64,000 nt of DNA. Origin: Halobaculum roseum (GTDB lineage: Archaea > Halobacteriota > Halobacteria > Halobacteriales > Haloferacaceae). The stretch is from NCBI RefSeq assembly GCF_019880245.1, contig NZ_CP082286.1:1010521-1074520 (forward strand), read 5' to 3'. Each line of letters starts with the position of its first letter. Position 1 is the stretch's first letter. This document shows positions 6,793-30,365 of the stretch, piece after piece. The notes below the pieces were generated by a model, which saw only the letters and a list, made by a program, of their open reading frames with translations, was not told where the DNA came from and ran no database searches. The position numbers and the translations under genes were made by a program.

Positions 6793-8208
6793 GTGCAGCG
6801 TCCGTCCCTCGCCGCCGTCCGCGGGTTCGACCGCGCCGTCTACGTCGTCGCCTTCGGACAGCTCATCAACGTCTTCGGCGGCGGGCTCGTCTACCCGTTC
6901 GCGACGGTTCACTTCCACCTGCAGGTCGGGATCGCGCTGTCGGTCGTCGGCCTCGGACTCGGCGCAAAGAGCGTGACGACCGCCGCGGGGACGGCCGTCG
7001 GCGGGTTCCTCGCGGACGTGGTCGGTCGCAAGCCCGTGATGGTCGCGTCGATGGCGCTCTCGGCGGTCGCGCTCGCTGCGTTCGCGTTCGTGCCCGATAT
7101 CGCCGGCGCCGTTCCGGGGGCGGTCCCCGCCGCGACGGGCGTCTCGGCGCTCGGCGTCGCGTTCGTCGGCGTCTGCGTCGCCTCCGGGTTCGTCCGCGGG
7201 CTCTACACGCCCGCGAGCCACGCGATGACCGCCGACCTCACCGACGCCGCCGAGCGCGACCGCGGGTACGCCCTCCTCAAGGTCGCGAACAACGTCGGCT
7301 TCGGCGCCGGCTTCGTCGTCGGGGGCGTCCTCTACTCGGTGGCGTCGGTCGCCGTCTTCGTCGCCGACGGCGCCACCTCGGCGGTCGTCGCGCTCGTCAT
7401 CCTCCTGTTCGTCCCGCGCGTCGCCGGCGACGACGCCGAGAGCGACGCCCCCGGCGACGCGGACGAACGCGGGGGCGACGGCTCCGAGGGTGACGCCGTC
7501 GGCGACGACGACCGCACGCTCGCGGCGTGGTGGCGCGCGGCGACCCGGCCGCGGGTGCTCGCGCTGGCCGGCGTCAACGTCGGCTTCGCGGTCATGTACG
7601 CGCAGATGCAGACGACCGTCCCGATCGTCGCCAAGGAGGGATTGGGCCTGACGGCCGCCCAGCTCGGCACGCTGTACGTCGTCAATCCGCTCACCATCGT
7701 CCTCCTGCAGATCCCGCTCGTCGACGCCGTCGGCGGGTGGCGTCGCACGCGGGGGCTCGCCGTCTCGGCGTGCTTCTGGGCGGTGGCGATGCTCGCGGCC
7801 TGGGGTGCCGACCTCGCCCGCGTCCCGGAGGGAACGGGCCTCGCCGTCCCGGCGGTACTGGTCGGCGTCGCGCTCGTCGGCGGACACCTCCTCCTCCGGA
7901 CGGTCGGGGAGATCCTCCACTCGCCGCTGGCGTCCGCGCTGATGTCGGATCTCGGGACCGCCGCCGAGCGCGGCACGCAGCTGTCGATGCTCGAGGTCGC
8001 CAAGCGGCTCGGCATCGGGCTGGGATCGTTCGCCGGCGGGCTGTTCTTCGATTACGGCCTCTCGGGGCTGCTGTGGCCGACGCTGGTCGCGGTGTGCGGG
8101 CTCGTCGCCGCGGCGCTGCTGTGGCTGGAGCGGTCCGTGACCCCGATCGAGAACGGCGCCGTCGGCGACGCGACGGAGGCGGTCGCCGAGCCCGCAGTCG
8201 ACGACTGA
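6793..8208 (+). CDS. MFS transporter, 12 transmembrane segments
   Basis: 471-aa major facilitator. The loop between TM2 and TM3 shows GGFLADVVGRKPVM, the family signature, and a second-half equivalent is visible after TM8 (VDAVGGWRRTRG). Two six-helix bundles are separated by an acidic central loop (about residues 215-245, many Asp/Glu/Gly), as usual for haloarchaeal carriers. The start is a GTG at the 5' end of the hydrophobic frame. No neighbouring metabolic gene points to the substrate; a drug or sugar exporter is possible. Confidence 0.88.
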   Translation: MQRPSLAAVRGFDRAVYVVAFGQLINVFGGGLVYPFATVHFHLQVGIALSVVGLGLGAKSVTTAAGTAVGGFLADVVGRKPVMVASMALSAVALAAFAFVPDIAGAVPGAVPAATGVSALGVAFVGVCVASGFVRGLYTPASHAMTADLTDAAERDRGYALLKVANNVGFGAGFVVGGVLYSVASVAVFVADGATSAVVALVILLFVPRVAGDDAESDAPGDADERGGDGSEGDAVGDDDRTLAAWWRAATRPRVLALAGVNVGFAVMYAQMQTTVPIVAKEGLGLTAAQLGTLYVVNPLTIVLLQIPLVDAVGGWRRTRGLAVSACFWAVAMLAAWGADLARVPEGTGLAVPAVLVGVALVGGHLLLRTVGEILHSPLASALMSDLGTAAERGTQLSMLEVAKRLGIGLGSFAGGLFFDYGLSGLLWPTLVAVCGLVAAALLWLERSVTPIENGAVGDATEAVAEPAVDD

Positions 8209-24483: not shown

Positions 24484-24661
24484 GGGGTCGTGGCCAAGCC
24501 CGGTATGGCGACTGACTCCAGAGGCAACGCGCCCGGTGACGAACTCCAGACTGATATACCGAGCGTCCGACTGATCATCGGACGCGACGACGACCCTCTG
24601 GAGTACCGAGGTGCCGACCGGAGATATCAGTCGATCGGGGGTTCAAATCCCTCCGACCCCA
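24484..24661 (+). tRNA. tRNA-Trp (CCA anticodon) with 104-nt intron
   Basis: Acceptor stem GGGGTCG (24484-24490) pairs with CGACCCC before discriminator A24661. Anticodon stem ACTGA/TCAGT encloses loop CTCCAG-A with CCA at 24518-24520. T-arm GGGGGTTCAAATCCCTCC is perfect. The exons are 24484-24521 and 24626-24661, giving a 74-nt mature tRNA; the 3' CCA is not encoded. The intron after position 37 is the canonical haloarchaeal site, cut by the bulge-helix-bulge endonuclease. Confidence 0.97.
24522..24625 (+). ncRNA. tRNA-Trp intron, C/D-box guide RNA
   Basis: In Haloferax the tRNA-Trp intron is a C/D-box RNA guiding 2'-O-methylation of the tRNA itself (positions 34 and 39). Here a box-C-like GTGACGA (24536-24542) and a D'-like CTGA (24551-24554) are seen, with ACTCCAGA between them repeating the anticodon-loop sequence and a long GC hairpin (GCGTCCGA...TCGGACGC) in the centre. 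Intron boundaries set by anticodon-stem pairing; box assignment is tentative. Confidence 0.75.
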
Positions 24662-24733
24662 TTCCATACAAAACAATAGCGGAGGCTCTTGCCACTACGT
24701 ACCTGAGGGAACCGTCGTCGCGGACCGGAGGTG

Positions 24734-24865
24734 GTGTGCGTCAGTCTCGGTTCCGACGCTCGCGAACCGACGGCCGAGCCGGTGCTGTGTGAGTTCTGTG
24801 GCTTCGAGATCGAGTACGTCGGTCAGGAGTGTCCCGCGCTCGACGACGGAAGGTGTCAGTCGTGA
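24734..24865 (+). CDS. Small zinc-binding protein, 43 aa
   Basis: GTG-started ORF ending in CEFCGFEIEYVGQECPALDDGRCQS: CxxC followed by C-x7-C, a convincing zinc knuckle. The frame is closed just upstream by a stop, so it must start at GTG 24731 or 24734. It overlaps the next frame by four bases (GTGA). Haloarchaeal codon use and the cysteine pattern support it despite its size. Lies directly downstream of tRNA-Trp, at the edge of the accessory strip. Family not recognised. Confidence 0.55.
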   Translation: MCVSLGSDAREPTAEPVLCEFCGFEIEYVGQECPALDDGRCQS

Positions 24866-24943
24866 GCGCCGACGACGGCGTCACCGGGTGCGACGATCCT
24901 CGCGACCACCTCGTCGGCACGCACGTCGACCAGTTCGCTTCAG

Positions 24944-25108
24944 TCATCGGCGGGTACCTCCGGCCCCTGGCGGGGCAGGCCGCCGCCGAGTACGTCGCTG
25001 ACGTTTTGGGTCCAGCTCGGTGGCGAAGTCCTCGTGCGAGTCGGCGACGCTGGATACCCCACGTTCGAGGACCTCGGCCTCGAACGTGGGCTCACGTTTG
25101 GACGCCAT
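24944..25108 (-). pseudogene. N-terminal fragment of a small acidic protein
   Basis: Starts MASKREPTFEAEVLERGVSS behind a strong TATA box (TATATA, on the minus strand near 25115) and reads well for about 33 residues to DFATELD. It then enters antisense of the plus-strand truncated gene, where it turns Arg/Pro-rich and stops at 54 codons. The two converging fragments share one breakpoint near 25010. Family not recognised. Confidence 0.5.
25058..25090. repeat. 13-bp perfect inverted repeat inside the fragment
   Basis: CCCACGTTCGAGG (25058-25070) and CCTCGAACGTGGG (25078-25090) are separated by 7 bp. It falls in the coding part FEAEVLERG of the minus-strand fragment, so it may reflect codon use, or serve as a binding or recombination site beside the breakpoint. 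Confidence 0.6.
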
Positions 25109-25157
25109 CGAAATATATAGTACTAGACACACCACATACCTGAGAACACGGTTCGGT

Positions 25158-25220
25158 GAAAGTGAAGTTCGGAGCGTAGAACTAACCGAAGCACTTTCAT
25201 TGTAAGGATTGTAAGGATTG
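25158..25220. promoter_or_regulatory. Nested inverted repeats and 9-bp tandem repeat upstream of relBE
   Basis: GAAAGTG (25158-25164) pairs with CACTTTC (25192-25198); inside it AGTTC (25166-25170) pairs with GAACT (25179-25183). Directly after come two copies of TTGTAAGGA plus TTG (25200-25220), ending 9 bp before the antitoxin start. The arrangement suits cooperative autorepression by an antitoxin-toxin complex. Inference. Confidence 0.5.
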
Positions 25221-25229
25221 CACGAGCGT

Positions 25230-25427
25230 ATGTCGAAGGCTAACAAGCGAATCCCGGTAACCGAGGAGCGGTGGCGGGAACTCAACGAGCTGAAGGAAGC
25301 GGGCGAGACGTACGACGATCTGCTCGAAGACCTCATCCAGGAACACCAACGTCACAAACTGGCCGAGAAGACCCGCGCAGTCCGTGAAGCCGACGGCGAC
25401 GACCTGACCTCGCTCGATGAGTTATGA
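25230..25427 (+). CDS. RelB-like antitoxin
   Basis: 65 aa, MSKANKRIPVTEERWRELNE, then LKEAGETYDDLLEDLIQEHQ, then a charged C-terminal helix. An N-terminal strand-helix-helix would bind DNA, the tail the toxin. The ATG is preferred over an upstream TTG because the short form fits relatives. It overlaps the toxin gene by 11 bp. Resembles the vapB antitoxin near 14.3 kb in the ETxDxLL pattern. Base composition is lower in GC than the core genome. Confidence 0.85.
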   Translation: MSKANKRIPVTEERWRELNELKEAGETYDDLLEDLIQEHQRHKLAEKTRAVREADGDDLTSLDEL

Positions 25428-25710
25428 GGTCCTCCTGGCGGACGATGCACGAGAATATCTCGTCAGTTTGGACGACAAGAGCCAACGAATTCTGAAAGAG
25501 AATCTCCGGAAGTTAGCGGACGATCCGTATCCACGGCCCGGTTCAGGGTTCGGAGATACGGAAAAGTTGGTCGTCGACAGCGAGGAGATCTATCGACTCC
25601 ACATCGGGCGAACTCATACGGCCTTCTATGATATTCTAGAGGACGACCAGGAGGTTCGCATCGTCGATATCATGGACATCGACGAGGCGCACAAGCGGTA
25701 CGGATACTAG
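25417..25710 (+). CDS. RelE/ParE superfamily toxin
   Basis: 97 aa: MSYEVLLADDAREYLVSLDDKSQRILKENLRKLADDPYPRPGSG is the RelE helical hairpin, followed by YRLHIGRTHTAFYDILEDDQEVRIVDIMDIDEAHKRYGY, the four-strand sheet with the C-terminal Tyr typical of mRNA interferases. It would cut ribosome-bound mRNA or act on gyrase. Pairs with the overlapping antitoxin gene in an AT-richer accessory strip. Confidence 0.9.
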   Translation: MSYEVLLADDAREYLVSLDDKSQRILKENLRKLADDPYPRPGSGFGDTEKLVVDSEEIYRLHIGRTHTAFYDILEDDQEVRIVDIMDIDEAHKRYGY

Positions 25711-25749
25711 GCGGGTTCGAGTGAACCAGTTGGCCAGCCTACCCAGAAA

Positions 25750-26079
25750 CTACTCCGTCGTCTCCGGGGCGTCCTCGGGTCCCGTCGCGACGGCGGGGTC
25801 GGAGCGAGCCGCGTCGAGGTTCTGCTCGCGCTCCTCGCGGATCGCCGCCACCTCGCTGGGGTGCTCGTGGTAGTACGCGAGCGCCCGGTAGACATCGGCC
25901 ACGTCGAGATCGTGGCGGTCGGCGACCGCCCGGGGTTCGAGCCCGCGGCCCTCCACGCGCTCGTACACGAACAGCACGCTGATGCGCGTTCCGTCGATCC
26001 GTGGGTCGCCGCCGAGCACGTCCTCGGTTCGGACGATCCGAGGGGCGTCTCCGCCGTTCGACGAAGTCGTCTCGCTCAC
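25750..26079 (-). CDS. DUF433 protein (VapB45-type antitoxin)
   Basis: 109 aa. The core RIVRTEDVLGGDPRIDGTRISVLFVYERVEGRGLEPRAVADRHDLDVADVYRALAYYHEHPSEV is a DUF433 winged-helix domain, usually the antitoxin partner of a PIN-like (DUF5615) toxin. No such toxin is encoded on either side here: upstream is a broken integrase, downstream the relE toxin. Either it is an orphan or a partner was lost. Acidic tail. Confidence 0.85.
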   Translation of the reverse strand: MSETTSSNGGDAPRIVRTEDVLGGDPRIDGTRISVLFVYERVEGRGLEPRAVADRHDLDVADVYRALAYYHEHPSEVAAIREEREQNLDAARSDPAVATGPEDAPETTE

Positions 26080-26220
26080 ACTCGGTCGTTCGTCGTCATA
26101 GAGTAAAGTCTCTCCCCCGAGATATCGTCCATGTCAAAGGGGGGTTCTAGCGAGACAGGAGTTGGGAATGCGAACCCCTCGCTGAGGATGAGTTGGAGGA
26201 ACTTCTGGCGGCTGCGCGAC

Positions 26221-26478
26221 TAGTTCGGGCACCACGTCAATTACGGCGCGACTCTGCAGACCGTGACGAATCGGGTGAAGCGCGTCGCGGCGGCGACGGA
26301 GATCCGCTAGAAGATCACGCCGCACGTGCTGCGGCACACCTAAGTGACGCTTATCGCCGCGCGCGGTGCGACACCGCAGTACATTCGGCAGACGTTGGGT
26401 CAAGCTGATTTGTCGAGCGCGAACGACTACCTGCAGTACGCGGGGACGCAGTTGGACGCTAAGGCGGGGGAATTGTGA
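26221..26478 (+). pseudogene. Tyrosine recombinase/integrase remnant (C-terminal domain)
   Basis: In one frame the translation reads VTNRVKRVAAATEIR-stop-KITPHVLRHT-stop-VTLIAARGATPQYIRQTLGQ, then ADLSSANDYLQYAGTQLD. This is the catalytic domain of a XerC/D-type recombinase with HxLRHT, LGQ (normally LGH) and nucleophile Tyr in NDYLQY. Premature TAG (26308) and TAA (26341) replace codons expected to be Glu/Lys and Tyr, and the N-terminal half is missing. It dates the accessory strip as a decayed integrated element. Confidence 0.85.
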
Positions 26479-26530
26479 TGAGTTGCTCGATTTAAGTATA
26501 CTTGGTTTATTAATCGGAATCAGATCCCGG

Positions 26531-27424
26531 CTATAAGAACTCACGATGCCTCTCATCGGTGTTTTCTTCTAAACGGTCTCGATGAGGGCCATCCATTCGC
26601 TGACTATCAACTGCCTCTATTTGAGTGCCATATTCCATCGATGCCTCCAATAATGTTCTTCCTTTGATGGGTAAAGCGAGGTCCGCAAATTCTTGAGAAT
26701 AGGGCTCTTCATCAATATCTTCGTAATGAATAGTCATTTTGAGTCGAAGCCATTCTTTCCCAGCCTCGGCCAACTGCCCGGTTGCATGAACAAACGCTGC
26801 GGGCACATCATCATGATCACCCTGATATTCTCGGCGTGAACGAATGTAGAGTGCGCTTGTCAAGCTGAATACCTCCTCAGAGGTCTCTGGCTTTATGTAA
26901 CAATTCGGACTTCGAACTGCGGGTCCACTTCCCGCACCTTCCTTTCTCGGAACCCATCTAGTTGGTCTGGTATAGATGTCTTCTTCAGGTGCCGACTTCC
27001 AGTCTAATACCGGCTCCAGTTCAATCTCAACATTTCTCGCAGCCCCTTTACCCACGTTGCTAAGAATGATGCAAAAATCATCATGTTCACCGGTCCCGAT
27101 GTGGTCAATTTCCAGTAGCGGTTTATGTTGTAATTGTTGAAGTTCATTTTGATTTTCCATTAATTTTCTTTGAGTGTTCTGGATTGATGCCTGTTTATCA
27201 TACAATAACACCAAAAGAGCGGATAGAATAATCGATCCGACTGCTCCCAACACTTGAGCGATTTCGGGAAGATTATATGGGGATGATATTTCGATCATAT
27301 TTGTGATCATACTATATTCTAAATATGAAAATGTCGACAAACAGAGAATACATACCACAGATGCAATCAATAGAGACTTTCTAATTCCAATTATTGAATT
27401 TTCAGTTTCGTGTCTTTCATTCAT
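26531..27424 (-). CDS. AT-rich membrane protein with coiled coil, unknown
   Basis: 297 aa. Two N-terminal helices (about residues 14-35 and 54-75) are followed by a coiled coil (NTQRKLMENQNELQQLQHK) and a soluble beta-rich domain beginning LLEIDHIGTGEHDDFCIILSNVG and containing GAARNVEIELEP, typical of immunoglobulin-like folds. Codon use and GC content are far below all neighbours, with many Asn, Ile, Ser and Lys codons ending in A or T. This indicates recent acquisition, perhaps from a virus or a low-GC halophile. Function unknown. Confidence 0.8.
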   Translation of the reverse strand: MNERHETENSIIGIRKSLLIASVVCILCLSTFSYLEYSMITNMIEISSPYNLPEIAQVLGAVGSIILSALLVLLYDKQASIQNTQRKLMENQNELQQLQHKPLLEIDHIGTGEHDDFCIILSNVGKGAARNVEIELEPVLDWKSAPEEDIYTRPTRWVPRKEGAGSGPAVRSPNCYIKPETSEEVFSLTSALYIRSRREYQGDHDDVPAAFVHATGQLAEAGKEWLRLKMTIHYEDIDEEPYSQEFADLALPIKGRTLLEASMEYGTQIEAVDSQRMDGPHRDRLEENTDERHREFL

Positions 27425-27754
27425 TCAATGGCTAAATGGCGTGTGACATGACTTCAGTTTGTGGATTGAAACTCAAACGTAGAAAGGCTCAGAACTTGGT
27501 GGATGTAACCACGTTTCCACTCGAGACAGATACCGAGGGCAGGTACTTGCTCGGGTCTTCCATCACCCGAACCCCGCGTACCAACCCGGACGAATCCGCC
27601 CACTCAGCCGAATCCCCGGAACGGGCCGACGGTGATCAGCGTCCAACTCACCAGCGAAAGCGAGCAGTCCCCGCGACGAAATGACCCACTCGTGCACAAA
27701 TCCCTCACACTTCCCCCTGCTAAATAAACTCAACTACGCCCGATCCAATCCCCC
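27425..27754. other. Intergenic region, 330 bp, right edge of accessory strip
   Basis: No supported gene. Contains one GTGGATTGAAAC-like string (near 27461) resembling the end of type I-B CRISPR repeats but only once, and CAAATCCCTC at 27697-27706, identical to ten bases of the tRNA-Trp T-arm. An open frame from 27436 has unlike composition and no pattern. GC rises back to core level at the cdc48 stop. Confidence 0.5.
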
Positions 27755-30070
27755 TCACTCATGCGCCTCGGGCGGCGCAACCCGCTCCATCGCGGCCTCG
27801 AAGTCGCTCATTGTCACCGACAGCGCGTCGGCGTGGTCGTTCGCCTCCTCGCCGAACTCGTCGGCGACGCGCTCGACCGCCCGCATCGTCGCCTCCCGCA
27901 CGACCGCCGTGAGTTCCGCGCCGGAGTATCCCTCGGTGTGGTCGGCCACGCTCTCCAGGTCCACGTCCTCGGCAAGCGGCGTGCGCTCGGTGTGGACCGC
28001 GAGGATCTTCCGGCGCCCCTCCACGTCCGGCAGGGGCACCTCGACGTGGCTCTCCAGGCGGCCGGGGCGCACGAGGGCGTCGTCGAGCGCCTCCCGGCGG
28101 TTCGTCGCCGCGATGACCGCGAGGTTCGGGTTGCTGCTGGCGCGGTCCAGCTCGGTGAGCAGCTGCGAGACGACGCGCTCGCCGACGCCCGAGGAGTCGC
28201 CCATGCCGTCGCGGTCGGTCGCGATGGCGTCGATCTCGTCGAAGAAGATGATACTGGGCGCCGCCTGTCTGGCGCGCTCGAACACCTCCCGCACCGCCTT
28301 CTCGGACTCGCCGACGTAGCGGTCGAGCAGCTCCGGGCCGGCCACCTCGATGAAGTTCACCTCCGACTCGCCGGCGATGGCGCGCGCGAGCAGCGTCTTC
28401 CCGGTCCCGGGCGGGCCGTACAGCAGGACCCCCGTCGGGGGGTCGGCGCCGGCGGCGTCGAACAGCGGCGCGTACGTGAGCGGCCAGGTGACCGCGCGTT
28501 CGAGCGTCTTCTTCGCCTCCGTCAGCCCGCCCACGTCGTCGAAGGTCGTGTCGGGCTGTTCGGCGACGTACTCGCGCATGGCGGAGGGCTCGACCGCCGC
28601 CAGCGCCGACTCGAAGTCCGCCCGGGTCACCTCCACGGTCGCGAGGTCGACCTCGCTGTCGGCGTGGCGGGCGCGCCGCAGCGCGGTCAGCGCCGCCTCT
28701 GTCGTCAGCGAGTCGATGTCGGCGCCGACGAAGCCGTAGGTCCGCGCGGCGAGGCGGGCGACCTCCACGTCGTCGGCGAGCGGCATCCGACGGGTGTGCA
28801 CCTCCAGGATCTCGCGGCGGCCGGCCTCGCCCGGCACGCCGATCTCGATCTCGCGGTCGAAGCGCCCCCCACGCCGGAGGGCGGGGTCGATCGAGTCGAC
28901 GCGGTTGGTCGCGCCGATGACGATCACGTCCTCGCGGGCGTCGAGCCCGTCCATCAGCGAGAGCAGTTGGCCCACGATCCGATTTTCCATGTCGCCGCCG
29001 TCCTCGCGCTGGCCGGCGATGGAGTCGATCTCGTCGAAGAAGATTATCGCCGGCGCCGACTCGTCGGCCTCCGCGAAGATCTCCCGGAGCTTCTCCTCGC
29101 TTTCGCCCTTGTACTTCGAGGTGATCTCCGGGCCGGACACCGAGATGAACGTGGCGTCGACCTCGTTGGCGACGGCCTTCGCGATCAGCGTCTTCCCGGT
29201 CCCCGGCGGCCCGTGCAGGAGAACGCCCTTCGGGGGGTCGATGCCGAGGCGGGCGAACACCTCCGGCTCAGACAGCGGGAGCTCGATCGTCTCGCGCACC
29301 AGATCGAGCTCGTCGTCGAGCCCGCCGATGTCCTCGTAGGTGACGCCGCCGGCGGGCGGCGCCGACCCCGGGTCGCCGGGGGCGGGGGACCCCGCGCCGT
29401 CGCCTCCGCCCGCGCCGGCGTCGGCCCTGTCGCGTCGGTCGCGCGTCGGCAGATCCAGCGACGCGCCCGTGCCGGACGTGGAAGTGTTCACGCCGTCGTC
29501 CGCCCCGTCGCCATCCTCGCCCCCGTCGGCGTCGGCGGCGTCGCCGGCGCCCGTTTCACCGGGGTCGCGCCGTTCGACGACGACCCTCGTGCCGTCGTGG
29601 ATCTTCACCGGGCCCTCGGGACGGGTCGCGCGGACGACGAACACGTTGCCGCCGAGATGCGGGATCCGCACCTGCTCGCCCGCGCTGACGGGGCGGCCGT
29701 CGAGGTCGCGCTTGGCCGCCCGCGCCAGCGTCGCGTCGTCTATGTCGACGCCGTCGAGCGCCGCGGGCGCCGTCAGCGTGACGGCGTCGGCCTCGCCGAC
29801 GCGCTCCTTGTGGACGCGCACGCGCTCGCCGATCTTGGCGCCGGCGTTGGCGCGGGTCTCGCCGTCGACGAGGATCTCGCCGTCCTCGGCGCCGGTCCCC
29901 GCGGGCCACACCTTCGCCGCGGTCTCGCGCTCGCCGGCGATCACGACCGTCTCCCCGGACAACACGCCGAGTCGGCTCATCGTCGCGTCGGACAGGCGCG
30001 CGATGCCGCGGCCGGCGTCGCGCTTGGCCGCGCCGCGGACCGTCAGCGCGACCTCCTCGTCGTCGCTCAT
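27755..30070 (-). CDS. CDC48/VAT-type AAA+ ATPase
   Basis: 771 aa. N-terminal double-psi barrel and Nc domain ([23 protein letters not shown]) bind substrates; a disordered acidic linker replaces part of the usual connector (residues 190-240). Two AAA modules follow, each with GPPGTGKT (near residues 288 and 555), IIFFDEID and a sensor/arginine finger block ([40 protein letters not shown]). The hexamer unfolds proteins for the proteasome. The second module lacks the standard RLD before its Arg finger, so is slightly diverged. Start chosen at MSDDEE. Confidence 0.95.
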
Positions 30071-30173
30071 GTCACCGGGTTTGGAGGGCGGGGGCTTACC
30101 GCTTTCCACGTCCGGTCCGTCGACGGTCCGCCACCGCGACGGTCCGCCCGGGGAGAACCGCACCCGAACGGTC

Positions 30174-30365
30174 ATGCCTCCGGCGACGGAACGGGCGGCC
30201 GTGTTCGCCGCGCCCTCCTGTCCGAACTGCGGGAGCGAGTTCCTCGTGACCCGGGTTCGAACGCACGGGTATCCGAGACGGACCGACGGGAGCGTGAAGC
30301 GGTTCTACCGCTGCTTCCGGTGTTTCTTCAAGTTCTCCGGGGACGACGTGGTCGACCGTGAGTGA
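30174..30365 (+). CDS. Small zinc-ribbon protein (TFIIS-like fold)
   Basis: 63 aa. CPNCGSEFLVTRVRTHGYPRRTDGSVKRFYRCFRCFFKFSGDD: two CxxC knuckles separated by a basic hairpin, as in TFIIS-type zinc ribbons. Divergent from cdc48. Stops with TGA inside GAGTGACG. A nucleic-acid-binding role is likely from the fold; the target is not known. Confidence 0.75.
   Translation: MPPATERAAVFAAPSCPNCGSEFLVTRVRTHGYPRRTDGSVKRFYRCFRCFFKFSGDDVVDRE

Follow-up and report, generated by a model that had tools for sequence, protein, structure and literature searches.

A membrane protein gene of low GC content on a decayed, integrase-marked island of Halobaculum roseum: a candidate antiviral cargo gene with relatives in archaeal proviruses and defence operons

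Results

An intact membrane protein gene on a tRNA-bordered island

The window analysed here is a stretch of 64,000 nucleotides of Halobaculum roseum (contig NZ_CP082286.1, positions 1,010,521 to 1,074,520). It contains a low-GC island, bordered on the left by a tRNA and on the right by a cdc48-type gene, which carries the gene studied in this work, P0001. The features are as follows, in positions of the window; L and G numbers designate loci and genomes, respectively.

24484-24661, + strand: intron-containing tRNA, left border and candidate attachment site (Rfam RF00005, 48.1 bits)
24662-27754, no strand: low-GC island, 3.1 kb (flank alignments and GC profile)
25230-25427, + strand: 65-aa ORF overlapping the RelE-like gene, putative antitoxin from its position
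25417-25710, + strand: RelE/YoeB-like toxin (phrog_1213, E 1.7e-6; TIGR02116, E 0.003, below cut-off)
25750-26079, - strand: DUF433 protein (PF04255, E 8e-12)
26209-26475, + strand: fossil tyrosine recombinase, C-terminal part, with two in-frame stops (identity to the L081 and L074 integrases)
26531-27424, - strand: P0001, 297-aa two-helix membrane protein (ATG, 0 internal stops)
27338-27394, - strand: membrane helix 1, residues 11-29 (hydropathy; model helix 2-46)
27206-27262, - strand: membrane helix 2, residues 55-73, with the motif GSxxLSxxLVxLYxxQ (hydropathy; family alignment)
27122-27199, - strand: helical stalk, probable coiled coil, residues 76-101 (model helix 49-99; Q/K/N-rich)
27032-27064, - strand: motif LSNVGKGAARN, residues 121-131, in the CARDB-like beta domain (33-sequence alignment; CARDB match of L052)
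26669-27121, - strand: CARDB-like beta domain, about residues 102-252, probably cytosolic (low-confidence model strands; relatives; charge bias)
27755-30175, - strand: cdc48-type AAA ATPase, conserved right border, outside the element (same-genus comparison)

P0001 is a single-copy gene in its genome and, as originally predicted, is intact, with 297 codons from the ATG and no internal stop. At its base composition the chance of 297 open codons is 2.6e-9, and none of 1000 mononucleotide shuffles of positions 26481-27740 reached this length (maximum 195 codons); a chance origin of the frame is therefore not expected. The GC content of P0001 is 0.425 (0.53, 0.37 and 0.37 at the three codon positions), compared with 0.699 for the window and with 0.69-0.73 for cdc48, IMPDH and IleRS, in which third positions reach 0.95-0.97. 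The early description of this composition as unlike anything else in the window was nearly right, the RelE-like gene on the island being also low (0.527).

The tRNA, from its sequence probably tRNA-Trp, is present at the same place in L103, L105 and L106 with Rfam matches of equal score; a repeat of its 3' end, 12 bases or longer, was looked for in the island and not found. The broken integrase reported beside P0001 was recovered: in addition to its two in-frame stops, it shares 79.8% identity with an intact 178-aa integrase from the same genus (residues 89-177; L081 in G002), a gene directly beside a P0001 relative, and 78.7% identical to the integrase near another relative, L074. The overlapping pair at 25230-25710 (+) is a probable toxin-antitoxin pair, and the DUF433 gene has a normal GC content (0.718) within the low-GC island and no evident partner.

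Alignments of the flanks to the sister genomes G009, G003 and G005 end at 24664, 24664 and 24682 and restart at 27755, 27729 and 27780, respectively; both flanks are 85-96% identical, but 1.1-1.4 kb of other DNA lies between them. P0001 is absent from the same site in all three sister genomes that have both flanks in reach; in the seven other genomes of the genus, the cdc48 side alone matched within 8 kb, which is uninformative as to absence. The best match of cdc48 itself is 86-96% identical in 10 of the 10 other same-genus genomes (in two pieces in one). Integrase remnants at 70-73% DNA identity are also present in G009 and G003, so the site was probably visited by an element before these species parted. 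In G009 another ORF, 283 aa long, of low GC and with a hydrophobic stretch at its C-terminal end, stands beside the remnant (L103, about 7200-8100), which suggests that cargo swaps at this site.

P0001 belongs to a patchy family of low-GC genes

A single-sequence search matched 55 of 391 Halobacteria genomes in 29 of 86 genera, its own included, mostly near 30% identity, and a profile search was positive in 15 of 60 relatives, again with its own included. Among the 10 other genomes of the genus, one was matched by the single sequence (31% identical, elsewhere in the genome) and three by the profile, one of these through a 33-residue fragment. In the phylum, 29 of 294 genomes matched, of which the 16 outside the order gave weak and partial matches (best E 2e-11) that we do not claim as family members. 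Vertical inheritance as a single-copy core gene was therefore not seen.

BLAST at E < 1e-5 links all 59 proteins of more than 150 aa, P0001 and 58 relatives, into a single group. In 33 aligned sequences Y75, Q92, N123 and G125 are invariant besides M1, and L71 and G127 nearly so (G127 at least 90%). Sixty case loci were taken from the 63 single-sequence places outside the P0001 genome, leaving out G090, G219 and G296, the three weakest but for one; two fragments (L054, L087) and four near-duplicates (L050, L051, L076, L092) are counted in the 60 and not in a reduced set of 54, and genes were called by our own heuristic. In 59 of the 60 loci the family gene has a lower GC content than its own flanks, by 0.135 on average (54 loci, Wilcoxon p 2e-10); low GC is therefore a trait of the family and not of the transfer of P0001 alone.

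P0001 gave no confident family in Pfam, PADLOC, NCBIfam or PHROGs, and a profile search of the family against the PDB gave nothing convincing. No relative was confirmed in IMG/VR scans, and tblastn with P0001 and the L038 protein detected no member in 50,697 phage records. Pattern scans of the genome contigs also returned no relative, and since the genome search finds many, these scans are no evidence of absence.

A membrane hairpin with a probably cytosolic beta domain

The two membrane helices originally predicted are confirmed by hydrophobic segments starting at residues 11 and 55. The single-sequence AlphaFold2 model has helices at residues 2-46 and 49-99 (pLDDT mostly 60-80) and, past residue 117, low-confidence strands only (mean pLDDT 45, pTM 0.27). 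The predicted helix extends beyond the second membrane segment into a Q/K/N-rich sequence, from which the stalk is a probable coiled coil. The same order is kept in the family: two short hydrophobic helices, LVxLYxxQ, a Q-rich stalk, LSNxGxGxAxNL and a beta domain.

Relatives back the soluble beta domain of the prediction. In L052 the LSNxGxGxA segment matches CARDB (PF07705) with 25.6 bits, above the Pfam cut-off of 22.7, and four more of the 10 relatives scanned (L036, L038, L044 and L075) match it below cut-off; no CARDB match of P0001 itself was reported by Pfam at E up to 1. CARDB is usually an extracellular domain of the adhesion type. The likeness of the family to CARDB proteins lies in the beta segment LSNxGxGxA, which here follows a membrane hairpin and is probably in the cytosol. 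Exactly two clear helices were seen in 36 proteins, in which the K/R density is 0.138 before the first helix and after the second versus 0.035 in the loop, and the bias points the same way in 33 of these 36. Weak HTH-like C-termini were found in some relatives, all below cut-off: in L038 (HTH_20, E 0.0022; HTH_24, E 0.0032) and in L036 (E about 0.07). The charge bias and these C-termini together indicate that the N- and C-termini, with the beta domain, are probably inside the cell, and the external location first proposed was abandoned for a cytosolic one. The C-terminus of L044 has an AlkZ-like region (E 5e-5, below cut-off); L036, L038 and L045 form a subfamily with 49-53% identity, and P0001 and most members have no HTH-like extension.

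Family members are found in proviruses and near integrases

Within 7.5 kb of the 60 case loci, a pleolipovirus core gene was found at 13, an integrase at 13 and either of the two at 22, whereas none of the 20 control regions had one (Fisher p 5e-4); without duplicates and fragments the figure was 21 of 54 (p 3e-4). At least two core genes alone were found at 7 of 60 loci versus 0 of 20 controls, which is not significant (p 0.12). The controls were 20 shifted chromosome positions in 18 case genomes, not matched for GC; as they are not low-GC islands, part of the enrichment may hold for any island gene. At 38 of the 60 loci there was no pleolipovirus or integrase marker within 7.5 kb.

Five members lie among pleolipovirus core genes: L035, the best relative of P0001, and L037, L038, L039 and L071. 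The spike encoded at L037 is 79.5% identical to the HHPV3/HHPV4 spikes, the regulator of L071 is a DUF7845 protein (phrog_3288) that matched in 21 halovirus records, and phrog_3232 was also matched among the core genes at these loci. The converse was examined with DUF7845, present in 259 of 382 Halobacteria genomes, of which 60 sites were sampled at even steps from 150 listed. A family member was present at four of them, compared with 0.076 expected from the mean family density (3.2 Mb per genome): L156 (= L035), L162 (= L038) and the new loci L158 and L172. A weak match was observed at L150 (E 0.013); 56 of the 60 sites had no member. No pleolipovirus core gene was recognised on the island of the window. 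One DUF7845 match lies elsewhere in the same genome (G000:C1:2437958-2438959), so a pleolipovirus-like element is or was present there.

At L081 (9570-15096, in G002) a run of small membrane-protein genes stands beside the 178-aa integrase and the family member. It looks like an undescribed provirus, two of its proteins being unmatched by tblastn in phage records. Relatedness of L081 and L074 to named viruses was considered and rejected: three proteins gave no tblastn match, with some PHROG matches only.

Members are exchanged at a provirus cargo slot

In L035, L038 and L071 the family gene occupies one position, between an ATPase and 125-132-aa genes (phrog_2095 in L035) on one side and the DUF7845 gene on the other. 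Genome G057 holds two proviruses, L038 and L071, whose backbones are 93.4% identical over 6.6 kb and 93.8% identical over 2.8 kb; between these backbones lie 2.3 and 1.2 kb that are not alignable, and the two members in this one slot are 31% identical over 94 aa.

More generally, the slot between ATPase/phrog_2095 and DUF7845 (L113-L172) is a cargo site for low-GC genes. Both borders were present in 31 slots of the DUF7845 sample, 12 of them empty; the filled ones hold 31 genes of at least 110 aa, 23 with a GC content below 0.5, and the median GC of the cargo is 0.45, versus 0.62 for the adjoining core gene. The cargo includes an AriA-like AAA_15 ATPase (L171), a GmrSD-type nuclease and an AspBHI/Mrr-type nuclease, as well as pilin, PQQ, TPR and pentapeptide proteins, the pilin and PQQ repeats being clearly not defence. 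The slot of L035 contains a further membrane ORF (L156:8165-9022, -), which is 286 aa long, has a low GC content of 0.45 and gave no profile match.

In isolated viruses the same slot contains HRPV9 ORF22, a multi-helix protein (GC 0.44), and HGPV1 ORF10, of normal GC and methylase-like by eye. In HHPV4 (KY264020.1) it contains ORF17 (L193:6001-6966), a 321-aa protein of GC 0.39 in a region of 0.56, with two hydrophobic segments and an NTGRSKANN motif, features that resemble those of the family. Membership of ORF17 in the family was rejected, as HMMER gave no match and hhalign a probability of 1.7% (E 0.03), and in the phage collection ORF17 was found in HHPV4 records only; it is possibly a convergent or very distant counterpart. 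None of 12 proteins from virus isolates matched the family profile.

Some members lie in defence operons

The members at L068 and L079 are 38 and 58 bp behind brxC, are 84% identical and come from different genera. BrxC has 1277 aa at these loci (2013 bits in L068, 83% identical in L079) and is preceded at both by a 206-aa gene; further downstream in L068 is a 1398-aa gene with an NPPY methylase motif. The L088 member overlaps a type IIG/DrmMI-like gene by 4 bp, that of L082 is 64 bp behind a PLD/SNF2-type helicase gene, and at L045 a methylase gene is 114 bp away on the opposite strand. These defence neighbours were counted at family loci alone, and 6 of the 10 neighbours tested at these loci had no PADLOC match. 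The neighbour scans covered 101 of the 104 immediate neighbours (70 aa or longer) of 54 loci; the three dropped were two L079 genes and an L066 gene of 2321 aa. A conserved operon partner was sought across the 60 loci and none was found. Most of the neighbours were unrelated.

Discussion

P0001 is an intact gene on a mobile island, and it belongs to a patchy family whose members recur in proviruses and in defence operons and are swapped at a provirus slot. The data support a hairpin of two short membrane helices with both termini inside, from which a stalk leads to a CARDB-like beta domain on the cytosolic side. The original suggestion of a mobile, defence or virus-derived protein stands as regards mobility and virus association (absence from three sister genomes, patchy distribution, proviruses, BREX and restriction operons); the defence function itself is a matter of probability. 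As the family moves between archaeal proviruses and antiviral defence operons, an antiviral role is probable, and these proteins are probably a tool with which cells or resident viruses keep other viruses out. Because they have their own anchor, are placed among antiviral genes and are far more divergent than their surroundings, exclusion or defence at the membrane is the simplest reading.

P0001 itself is best explained as single-gene antiviral cargo, gained by horizontal transfer and left on a decayed island that an integrase remnant marks; we give this explanation slightly less than an even chance. From sequence and context, the cargo would probably act in superinfection exclusion or in another membrane-acting defence. 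This explanation is favoured by the provirus loci, the marker enrichment, the DUF7845 converse, the slot swap, the defence operons, the integrase of L081 and the precedent of HHPV4I (below). Against it are the 38 loci without a marker, the 56 DUF7845 sites that carry no member, the lack of a conserved partner gene, the p value of 0.12 for multiple core genes, the failure to find a member in IMG/VR or phage records, an island without a recognised pleolipovirus core gene, and the non-defence nature of some slot cargo.

In such a mechanism the stalk would oligomerise the protein, and the fast-diverging beta domain would bind, directly below the membrane, a component of an incoming virus or of host takeover. 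Binding might make the hairpin permeabilise the membrane, or stop entry or replication there, resulting in superinfection exclusion or abortive infection; near-identical proviruses would then carry different members to exclude different rivals. A wider proposal, which we consider possible and rather doubtful, is that of a membrane immune family combining a fast-diverging cytosolic CARDB-like recogniser with a two-helix effector, whose members are swapped by pleolipovirus proviruses at the slot, thereby setting superinfection specificity, and are wired by hosts into BREX and restriction operons.

SLATT families are defined by a linked gene for a nucleotide second messenger or another sensor. 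Two-helix effectors of this type, from SMODS and reverse-transcriptase defence, resemble the P0001 family in their N-terminal two-helix hairpin and helical stalk, and are likewise mobile and in part defence-associated. P0001 could accordingly be a pore-forming effector whose beta domain senses infection and whose hairpin depolarises the membrane, killing the cell. The single-gene layout and the residence of some members in defence operons fit, and weak matches cover the membrane helices and stalk: SLATT_5 (12.1 bits, cut-off 29.5, E 0.12), RTasSLATT (E 0.049) and ZorA2, the best match among the known defence models of PADLOC (13.9 bits, E 0.0048). All of these are below cut-off and of a kind common for any membrane helix with a coiled coil; unlike SLATT proteins, the family has a C-terminal CARDB-like domain, and no nucleotide-signalling synthase was noticed beside its genes at the 60 loci. 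We regard a pore-forming effector as unlikely.

Also improbable is that the gene serves some unrelated host function on low-GC islands, or that it is a functionless passenger of flexible regions. The low GC in 59 of 60 loci and the mostly unrelated neighbours are what a passenger would give, whereas frames are intact in nearly all loci, the motif is kept across about 25% identity, and one provirus slot has been filled repeatedly with family members. A role in maintaining the provirus or element (lysogenic conversion, anti-defence or stabilisation), with no action on other viruses, would account for the residence in proviruses and islands and for the pilin-like non-defence cargo of the slot; we judge it quite unlikely, as L068, L079 and L088 lie in BREX or restriction operons without any provirus marker. 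Least probable is a membrane-tethered sensor or regulator signalling from its cytosolic domain to DNA or to a partner, of which HTH-fused members would show the original role: the HTH-like C-termini of L038, L036 and L044, all below cut-off, and the L036/L038/L045 subfamily suggest it, but P0001 and most members have no such extension and there is no conserved adjacent target gene.

Antiviral cargo, the reading that we prefer, is of a kind already known, namely provirus- or island-borne antiviral membrane cargo. The bacterial Sie, Imm and Sp proteins are small prophage membrane proteins for superinfection exclusion, swapped among related phages; we know of no sequence relation between them and the P0001 family. 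An archaeal precedent is HHPV4I, also a pleolipovirus accessory gene, an m6A-dependent endonuclease for which exclusion of other viruses was proposed in the parts of the report covered here, where HHPV4 is called the sole described family member with such an enzyme (PMC10101028). It differs from P0001 as an SRA-wH-HNH nuclease encoded by gene 6, outside the slot, and is not a membrane protein (PMC10101028). An integrase module sets HHPV4 apart from HHPV3, and ORF17 is unmentioned in the parts of that paper covered (PMC5867852). In the passages covered of a paper on BREX components, neither two-helix membrane proteins nor CARDB are mentioned (PMC12839542), and in a survey presenting 164 new pleolipovirus genomes the main text, as far as covered, is without the words accessory, cargo, defense, superinfection, restriction and toxin (PMC10599561). 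In the literature searched, mainly non-subscription and at abstract level, we found no description of the family or the slot as a defence locus. The family has no library model, and neither the family, nor the CARDB-like domain that its members probably have in the cytosol, nor the slot in archaeal proviruses seems to have been described in this literature.

In archaea, little is known of superinfection exclusion or of defence carried by viruses. With the two proviruses of G057 and their different members, and with the restriction and AriA-like cargo, an anonymous ORF becomes a candidate that can be tested, and the availability of pleolipovirus isolates in laboratory hosts makes testing feasible. 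New antiviral genes of archaea might also be sought in the slot. At L171:3797-5706 (-), the AriA-like AAA_15 ATPase gene is directly followed by a 192-aa gene, TOPRIM-like by eye, and the two are possibly a PARIS-type pair in the pleolipovirus slot.
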